From: Halothiobacillus sp. | GTDB taxonomy: Bacteria > Pseudomonadota > Gammaproteobacteria > Halothiobacillales > Halothiobacillaceae | NCBI GenBank assembly: GCA_020061705.1 | Contig: JAGUXT010000009.1 | Coordinates: 1 to 35,593 of the forward strand | Direction: 5' to 3' | DNA length: 35,593 bases | Part shown: positions 9,108-10,903 of the stretch, one piece after another | Layout: each line of letters opens with the position of its first letter | Position numbering within the stretch: the stretch's first letter is position 1 | Position numbers and translations under genes: made by a program | The notes under the pieces: model-generated | What the model was told of the DNA's origin: nothing | The model's input: the letters and a program-made list of their open reading frames with translations, nothing else | Database searches by the model: none

Positions 9108-10588
9108 ACTGGCTTCAATGCGGCTGCACGAAAATGCGGCCGCAACTCTTCACACATCGCCACGGCGTAAGAGTCCGTCATACCGGCAATCATATCGGTG
9201 AGTAATTGCGCCTCTCTATAACGCAGCGGCATCATGTTGCGCGGCGATTCAAACACGCGGCGATAATTTTCCGACATTCGGCCATACGCATACGAGGCAA
9301 ACGGTGAACGGCGTGGAGCGTCTACTGGCGCGCCATGCTCACGATCCGTAATTGCAAACCACAGCATATCCATCAGCTCATGAATGACCTCAAAGCCGCG
9401 CAGCTCGACTTTGAGCACACTGGGGTGACGATAGACGTGGCGCTGATTGAATTGGCGCAACGTCGCAATAAACACCCCCGCCGACGAAGCTTCGAGCAGC
9501 TCGCCCACAAATACCCCGCCCAAAATGTCTTGTTGTTGACGCAACCAGGCTTCGGTAAGCGCACGCATGAGCACCCCCATAGCACGAATACGGAAGACTT
9601 GCATGGAAATATCGTTTAACTCCGCAGGCGACAAACCTGCTTCGCGATACACCACATGCTCGCGCTCAGCCTCATTGCATACCCAAGCCACGGTTGCATC
9701 CTGCCCTGCCGCATGACGTAAAAAGGCCAAAATATCGTGGAAGGACACCAGACGTTTTTTAACCGCATCCTCCGCATCCAATACGCAATAGGCGATGTCA
9801 TCACACGCTTCCAACACAAACGTCAGCGGATGGCGTTGCCCGGCTGTTAATCCGGTCGCCGCCCAGACATCTTCGATCAGACCCGCTTCCGACTGGAAAA
9901 ATCCATGCTTGCGCCGCACGGACTGCGACTTATCCACCCCATCTGAGGCCACTGGATATTTCAACAAAGCAGCCAAGGTGGCATAACTCAGATTCAAACC
10001 ATAATCGTCATTGATAATTTGCAGCTTGGTGAGCAGGCGCAAGGTTTGGGCATTCCCCTCGAAACGCAGAAAATCCAGACGCATCGCCTCTGTTAAGCCA
10101 TAGCGCGCATCAAATACATCTGCCGCATACCGCTCGAACCACGCCTGTATAGCGCGCTCGCCCTGGTGCCCAAATGGTGGGTTACCCAAATCATGCGCCA
10201 AACCCAAAGTCGCCAACAGGGTTGGTACATCTCGCGCAGCCTGTGCGCGAGATTGCGCCACAGCATGGTTAAATACCAGATCCACACCTGCGGCGCGCGC
10301 CAGATTGGCCACCTCATGTGAATGGCTTAGGCGCGTGCGTACCACATCATTGCGTTCCAATGGAAAAACCTGCGTTTTATCGGCCATGCGTCTGACCGGA
10401 GCTGCGTAAAGAATACGATCGTAATCACGCTCGATCTCGGTGCGCACCTCACCTACACCAGATAGATTCGGCCATGGCAAGGACAATGCCAACGGTTTAC
10501 CCCATGTGGAAATTGACTCTGACCCGCCACTGCGTGAGGCGCTTGCTCGCCGACGCGCAGGATTCAATAAAACCGTCCAATCAGACAT
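9104..10588 (-). CDS. dgt: Deoxyguanosinetriphosphate triphosphohydrolase (HD domain)
   Basis: The 494-residue product is close to the length of the long, Escherichia coli-type dGTPases. It carries the HD metal site, with RLSHSHEVANLAR (86-98) giving the first histidine and LAHDLGNPPFGHQGERA (130-146) the HD pair His132-Asp133. Further family blocks include EGNAQTLRLLTKLQ and CDDIAYCVLDAEDAVKK. dGTPases split dGTP into deoxyguanosine and tripolyphosphate, influencing dNTP pools and phage defence. The ATG at 10588 has GGAGGT 7-8 bases upstream, better than the in-frame start at 10612. The gene is convergent with glgP, and the stop codons overlap by 4 bases (9104-9107). The upstream leader runs into the hairpin chain at 10643-10850. 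The family assignment is firm; the exact nucleotide preference is not tested here. Confidence 0.9.
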   Translation of the reverse strand: MSDWTVLLNPARRRASASRSGGSESISTWGKPLALSLPWPNLSGVGEVRTEIERDYDRILYAAPVRRMADKTQVFPLERNDVVRTRLSHSHEVANLARAAGVDLVFNHAVAQSRAQAARDVPTLLATLGLAHDLGNPPFGHQGERAIQAWFERYAADVFDARYGLTEAMRLDFLRFEGNAQTLRLLTKLQIINDDYGLNLSYATLAALLKYPVASDGVDKSQSVRRKHGFFQSEAGLIEDVWAATGLTAGQRHPLTFVLEACDDIAYCVLDAEDAVKKRLVSFHDILAFLRHAAGQDATVAWVCNEAEREHVVYREAGLSPAELNDISMQVFRIRAMGVLMRALTEAWLRQQQDILGGVFVGELLEASSAGVFIATLRQFNQRHVYRHPSVLKVELRGFEVIHELMDMLWFAITDREHGAPVDAPRRSPFASYAYGRMSENYRRVFESPRNMMPLRYREAQLLTDMIAGMTDSYAVAMCEELRPHFRAAALKPV

Positions 10589-10642
10589 TAACCAAACCTC
10601 CATTGAACTCAACGCATGCTCAATACGCCAACCGCATGATGC

Positions 10643-10850
10643 AACTGGCTGCTGAAATACTGTATCAGCAGTCAGTTAAGGCACGTCAAGAATGACGTGC
10701 TCGCATATCATTCGCTGTAAGTGATTGATATGCGAAAGACGCGTGCAGACAAGCGCCTCACGGGTCTTGCTTACAAACCGCATGGAAGCAGTTTGTAAGC
10801 ATCTTGATAAGAGCCTGTTTGAAATCTTGCTGAACGGATGCGGCAAGATT
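10643..10850. repeat. Chain of six hairpins in the dgt-atpC intergenic region
   Basis: Between dgt and atpC there are 350 bases without a gene. Most of them are taken up by hairpins lying end to end: 10643-10655/10665-10677 (12 of 13 pairs); 10681-10688/10693-10700 (8 of 8, AGAA loop); 10701-10716/10720-10735 (one T-T mismatch and one G-U, GTA loop); 10736-10745/10759-10768 (9 of 10); 10769-10778/10791-10800 (10 of 10); 10823-10830/10843-10850 (8 of 8). The second to fifth abut with no gap. Short frames crossing the area have no family resemblance. The strand of action is unknown. Confidence 0.75.
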
Positions 10851-10879
10851 GCGAATAAGTTCTTCATGTACAGACAATA

Positions 10880-10903
10880 AAAAAAGGAGGCAGAGCCTCC
10901 TTA
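10880..10903 (-). terminator. Intrinsic terminator of the atp operon
   Basis: Read on the minus strand this is AAGGAGGC, a TCT loop, GCCTCCTT and then a run of T. The stem is 8 bp (10885-10892 with 10896-10903) and the T tract corresponds to 10880-10886. It lies about 36 bases after the atpC stop, where a rho-independent terminator of the operon is expected. Confidence 0.9.

Follow-up and report, generated by a model that had tools for sequence, protein, structure and literature searches.

The gap between atpC and dgt in the genome of a Halothiobacillus sp. is filled with hairpins, and this raises the question of whether the chain is a structured RNA of this locus or a sequence of a different kind. 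The window analyzed is a 35,593-nt stretch of contig JAGUXT010000009.1, and the hairpins occupy positions 10643–10850, far above chance as judged by the MFE fold and by shuffled sequences. The two neighboring genes, atpC (PF02823) and dgt (HD domain and HD_assoc), are both on the minus strand, and a phosphorylase gene is found further to the left of the gap. The start of dgt (window 10570–10612) is probably an ATG after GGAGGTTTGGTTA and not the mechanical TTG start at 10612; an ATG start is likewise present in the congeners G003 and G004. All six inverted repeats of the original prediction are present at the positions it gave, and the MFE fold places zero bases between H2, H3, H4 and H5, in agreement with the exact abutting it described. 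The 208 bp fold with -95.1 kcal/mol on the plus strand and -88.5 kcal/mol on the minus strand. Compared with shuffled sequence, these values correspond to z scores of -9.0 (plus) and -9.3 (minus), and 0 of 200 shuffles fold as well. The tiling, said to be beyond chance, is so: there are five non-overlapping strict inverted repeats in the 208 bp, and 500 dinucleotide shuffles of the same 208 bp contain 0.18 on average and never more than 2. By this strict count the stretch has the highest inverted-repeat density in the whole 35.6-kb window. The intrinsic terminator of the atp operon is separate from the chain, as had been proposed; the sole terminator-like site is at 10884–10902.

The hairpins were originally taken to be unrelated palindromes. 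The five hairpins H1 to H5 do differ from one another, yet together they make up a copy of a single dispersed repeat. The chain is a unit as far as H1–H5 are concerned, which form one element (10641–10809), but the sixth hairpin is outside it. A BLAST comparison of the gap with the host genome reveals about ten related places with 70–77% identity, the consensus of these places retrieves about 20 good copies, and a covariance model from 26 copies gives 45 matches in this genome. With the covariance model, relatives are found in 14 of 27 Halothiobacillaceae genomes, with up to 77 matches per genome; G008 has 24. They are also present in 39 of 274 sampled Gammaproteobacteria genomes, representing 32 of 222 genera. 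A pattern scan shows matches in Halothiobacillus species, other Halothiobacillaceae, Immundisolibacter and Thiohalobacter, of which a few stray matches may be due to chance. Copies elsewhere sit beside unrelated genes, in either orientation. The element consensus has no blastn match on plasmids or phages, and the window stretch and ten elements have no Rfam match at the gathering score; the sub-threshold Rfam matches mir-7131 and HOTAIR_2 are hairpin noise. No published description of the element family was found in the open-access literature on MITEs with CsrA, IS5-type MITEs with hairpins, CANGGANG repeats or TwoAYGGAY.

Several variants of the element are seen. An extra nested hairpin of approximately 20–40 nt is present inside the H4 loop in L033, L034 and L028 (G000 contigs C42, C57 and C16) and is a structural variant common to the three loci. 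At L352 and L353 (G045) and at L186 (G014), the element or a part of it of approximately 124 bp is repeated in tandem. Solo H1 hairpins of about 40 bp, lacking the other parts of the element, are at C8:174637-174675, C52:21471-21511 and C44:31539-31573 in G000. At L068 (G008), approximately 1585–1700, a truncated element is broken by another palindromic repeat (GTCATTCCCGCG...CGCGGGAACGAC).

The window copy, which was delimited by BLAST to other copies in its own genome and by covariance models, has its GGA-loop strand on the plus strand. A covariance model built without it recovers positions 10641–10809 with 103.1 bits (E 3.8e-30), and a model that includes it scores 130.8 bits. The closest copies seen are L166, from another species of the genus, and L060. 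The copy begins with the left target-site sequence GCAA (10641–10644), which is GTAA in the near-empty site of G004. The left terminal inverted repeat lies within H1 (10643–10677) and reads CTGGCTGCTGAAA, for which the consensus of the family is CAGGCTGCTGAAA. H2 (10681–10700) has the hexaloop AAGAAT at 10688–10693, where the GGA of the family consensus ANGGAN is lost. H3 (10701–10735) has a GTAA apex with one extra base, the family apex being a GNRA-like GYAA loop, and H4 (10736–10768) has a loop that varies among subfamilies. H5 (10769–10800) keeps ANGGAN in its hexaloop ATGGAA (10782–10787). H5, together with the sequence following it, contains the right terminal inverted repeat, and the right target-site copy ATAA (10807–10810) is decayed relative to GTAA; both terminal repeats are decayed as well. 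The sixth hairpin (10823–10850, plus strand, MFE fold) has the loop AACGGATG, also with ANGGAN (ACGGAT). Compared with the consensus of 25 other aligned copies, 32 of the 57 pairs are unchanged, 11 are changed on both sides, 4 are changed on one side and 10 are broken. By its sequence, the copy is old yet recognizable. With the H2 loop lost and 10 of 57 pairs broken it is degenerate and probably has no specific role for the atp operon or dgt, and its expected effect on atpC and dgt is that of a structured spacer, with no further specific effect.

Secondary structure is conserved throughout the family. Of 130 copies, 122 fold as RNA into exactly five hairpins, and each copy has the order H1-H2-H3-H4-H5, abutting or almost. 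In an alignment of 39 genomes, represented by one copy each, standard pairs make up 94.5% of pair cells, compared with 66.1% in shuffled data and 36–44% with slid partners. Double changes are present at 55 of 57 pairs and the covariation score is 0.673 (0.184 shuffled, <=0.13 with slid partners), figures that lean to structure in that the alignment was fitted to the model; a sequence-based MAFFT alignment of 26 copies already shows double changes at 30 of the 57 pairs. The suggestion of a real, maintained structure with compensatory changes in relatives has thus held up. Judged from these alignments, the five hairpins are one conserved architecture, in which the stems are rewritten with the pairing kept.

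The ends of the element resemble those of IS5-family elements. The family-consensus terminal inverted repeats are TAACAGGCTGCTGAAA (left) and TAACAGGATGCTGAAA (right, reversed), and the ends in Halothiobacillaceae read NTAN-CAGG...CCTG-NTAN. Identical flanking 4-mers are found in 33 of 129 copies, compared with 7.0 expected (maximum 16) from shuffling, and the target-duplication peak is sharp and at one offset only. The duplication of the window copy, GCAA/ATAA, is only a decayed match when set against GTAA in G004. Complete IS5-family elements are present in G151 and G287 (NF033581, E 2.5e-105 and 2.4e-97). These have ends GGATGCTCTGAACAAGT and GGAAACGCTGATTTATTC and 4-bp duplications CTAG, TTAG, TTAA, CTAA and ATAA, and the hairpin elements in the same two genomes begin GGAAGGTCTGAATAAGT and GGGCAGCGCTGATTTATTC, i.e., the ends are similar, not identical. 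Mobilization in trans by the transposases of such elements is the natural inference. The hairpin element would be a non-autonomous one of approximately 155–170 bp, with the left terminal repeat built into H1 and the right into H5, and would insert at NTAN with duplication of 4 bp, presumably through IS5-family transposases acting in trans. A search of the host genome for a complete IS with the ends of the element gave no convincing end pair, and no DDE_Tnp_1 (PF01609) transposase was found in the host draft genome or in G003.

In both G003 and G004, atpC and dgt are present and the gap that separates them lacks the element. The original prediction had considered that related genomes might show the same position with no conserved pairing; this does not apply, as the element is simply absent there. 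The stretch from the atp terminator to dgt is short in G004 (TGTTAACTTACATCATGCG, gene strand), with GTAA (plus strand) where the window has GCAA. The window carries approximately 60 bp (10811–10870) beyond G004, including the sixth hairpin with its ACGGAT loop, and G004 therefore represents a near-empty and not a perfect empty site. The extra 60 bp may be a remnant of another element.

The loops of H2 and H5 are conserved. Among 122 copies, the apex carries GGA in 107 for H2 and in 109 for H5, compared with 2 (H1), 0 (H3) and 4 (H4). ANGGAN is found on the element strand 89 times in H2 and 88 times in H5, and once each on the opposite strand. Over the 39 genomes the apex of H2 is C(38) A(38) N G(38) G(35) A(38) N G(37), where the N positions are almost unconstrained, and that of H5 is C(36) A(28) N G(36) G(32) A(37) N G(36). 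Some individual copies have lost GGA, as in H2 of the window copy, and ATGAAT is frequent. The model that finds distant copies includes the loop sequence and biases the matches to GGA, but this is not the whole story, because the H4 loop of the same model is not retained in many matches, and elements chosen by the terminal repeat alone, with no model, have GGA in H2 (11 of 13) and H5 (12 of 13). ANGGAN hexaloops are bound by RsmE, and in a hairpin loop they are high-affinity RsmE/CsrA sites; SELEX with CsrA gave RUACARGGAUGU, its GGA located in the loop of a hairpin (PMC7652899). Such sites are generally paired for the dimer (PMC4333381). A csrA gene is present in 38 of the 42 element-bearing genomes, including all five complete ones searched, and the four with no match are all drafts. 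The most element-rich genome of the family, G014 (77 matches), has no csrA match; it is a draft, and this may be an assembly gap.

The explanation favored here, with a probability of roughly two in three, is that the element is an IS5-type MITE whose five-hairpin body carries a pair of candidate CsrA/RsmA sites and serves as an RNA decoy or tether. The fixed fold would display on H2 and H5 a C-ANGGAN-G hexaloop, i.e., a CsrA/RsmA recognition loop. If the GGA strand is transcribed, the transcript would present paired sites to a CsrA dimer and could act as a CsrA/RsmA-binding decoy or tether. It may sequester CsrA, tether it to genes near the insertion, or protect or silence the transcript of the element itself, and a benefit from this binding in the copies that propagate may be what keeps the loops. 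Several points are against a role as RNA. The orientation of the element relative to host genes is random (in tandem contexts, 23 sense vs 29 antisense), a sigma-70-like promoter was looked for and not found, G-U pairs are few, and the stems are long (7–14 bp). The hairpins from CsrA SELEX mostly have <=4 contiguous pairs, and very stable stems may disfavor binding (PMC7652899). Slightly in favor of an RNA role is that G-U outnumbers A-C on the GGA strand by 70 to 34 (p 0.0005 with no correction for relatedness), a point which is weakened in that structure-fitted alignments favor G-U. A wider reading, put forward tentatively and with a little less than even confidence, is that of a class-wide mobile family that spreads paired CsrA/RsmA sites, with CsrA binding selected in propagating copies. 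Such elements would be selfish, exploiting or titrating a global post-transcriptional regulator, and could wire new genes into its network.

It is unlikely, but far from negligible, that the fold is instead kept for DNA reasons. Transposition may require hairpins in single-stranded DNA or in cruciforms, or the arms may be kept identical by template switching between them (quasipalindrome correction), with the GGA loops serving a DNA-binding protein or nothing. The random orientation to genes is consistent with this, as are the location of both terminal repeats within hairpins and the low proportion of G-U, 3.5% of the standard pairs. In 26 of 26 copies the left target copy ends in a base that is paired with one inside H1, and all four pair types occur, which also points to DNA. 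This pairing is between A1 columns 4 and 37 (e.g., L052, L032, L027 and L026), as if the H1 base were rewritten for each new target, or the target chosen by H1; a few copies (L055, L066) extend the H1 match into the left flank. A flipped loop, CATCCATG in place of CATGGATG, is found in two copies (H5 of L029 and H2 of L035); it resembles the product of an in-place inversion of the hairpin and likewise fits a process at the DNA level. Together, the target pairing, the flank extension and the flipped loops suggest that one arm of a hairpin serves as the template from which the other is rewritten, either through template switching or in the course of transposition. Such rewriting alone could yield part of the covariation but would not explain the conserved loops. 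Maintenance as DNA leaves unexplained why, over 39 genomes, C-ANGGAN-G with free N positions is fixed on one strand and in loops 2 and 5 only, and the G-U excess described above, with its qualifications, is also against it.

An ordinary inert intergenic MITE, with hairpins derived from terminal-repeat palindromes and replication slippage and GGA loops present by descent, is quite improbable. Its random orientation, the decaying copies, the solo H1 hairpins and the fact that copies avoid genes would all be expected of it. However, the stems are rewritten across genomes while the order, number, pairing and two loops persist, and descent alone would not spare the A, G, G and A positions of the loops (80% pairwise identity) over the stems (55%). 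A structured dgt leader RNA, as originally suggested, or a locus-specific RNA of the atp operon, is very improbable and largely refuted already: the copy lies between atpC and dgt and both strands fold strongly, but the gap in G003 and G004 has no element, copies are beside many other genes in either orientation, and the GGA strand (plus) of the window copy is antisense to both genes.

To our knowledge, no other family of bacterial transposable elements has a conserved ligand for an RNA-binding regulator of the host, and an IS5-type MITE with loops that bind CsrA would be the first known. Dozens of mobile two-site ligands per genome would then feed into a global regulator in a way not recognized so far, and could readily supply new Csr-controlled genes. 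The 39-genome alignment makes the idea of a CsrA ligand directly testable. Even with no part played by CsrA, the maintenance of pairing while almost every stem is rewritten offers a new insight into the evolution of IS5-type MITEs, as does the way in which the target duplication is coupled to the base of H1.

Compared with known systems, the element shares with the titrating small RNAs CsrB, CsrC, RsmX, RsmY and RsmZ a chain of hairpins with GGA/ANGGAN loops and an occurrence in Gammaproteobacteria. GGA loops of this type are present in several hairpins in the family; in the window copy they are found only in H5 of the element. The match to the ANGGAN hexaloop is the basis for proposing that the element may bind CsrA/RsmA. 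Unlike these small RNAs, it has no promoter found and no Rfam match, and it is mobile and multicopy, with long stems and exactly two sites. TwoAYGGAY RNA (RF01731) also has two hairpins with AYGGAY loops and has been proposed to bind CsrA (PMC4333381). Unlike the element, it is linked to Clostridia and has tandem-GA stems, and cmscan with RF01731 gave no match up to E 1 for ten elements or E 5 for the window stretch.

In Pseudomonas putida, palindromic intergenic RNA at ISPpu8 sites was recovered in vivo with RsmA, RsmE and RsmI (PMC7937890); in strain KT2440 an Rsm-bound palindrome lies downstream of PP_3547. Like the element, these are palindromic repeat RNAs, a likeness that is by description and not by sequence. 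ISPpu8 itself belongs to the IS4 family and makes 11-bp duplications (PMC3056050), and the ISPpu8-linked palindromes are at most candidate members of the element family. A search for the element in 56 genomes of an RsmZ-bearing genus gave one doubtful match, which does not fold into five hairpins. The terminal repeats and the target duplication make it unlikely that the element belongs to the REP/BIME sequences with RAYT, i.e., GTAG/CGTC-tagged palindromes with a linked RAYT gene.

The BOX repeats of pneumococcus are intergenic and repeated, and their transcripts are predicted to fold strongly. The element shares these properties with BOX, with SPRITE, also of pneumococcus, and with QMITE2 of Coxiella, which have sequences other than its own; a loop motif that is shared class-wide and addresses an RNA-binding protein of the host is not known to us from any of the three. 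Structured MITE-like repeats with strongly folding predicted transcripts have been described (PMC10969869). Like IS5-family MITEs, the element is short and non-coding, has terminal repeats and a 4-bp duplication of the YTAR/NTAN type, and is present in many intergenic copies, and the likeness extends to complete IS5-family elements with similar ends in two genomes. The body of a MITE is normally specific to the parent IS. Unlike IS5-family MITEs, this element has a conserved five-hairpin body and two fixed loops that are common to many families of the class.
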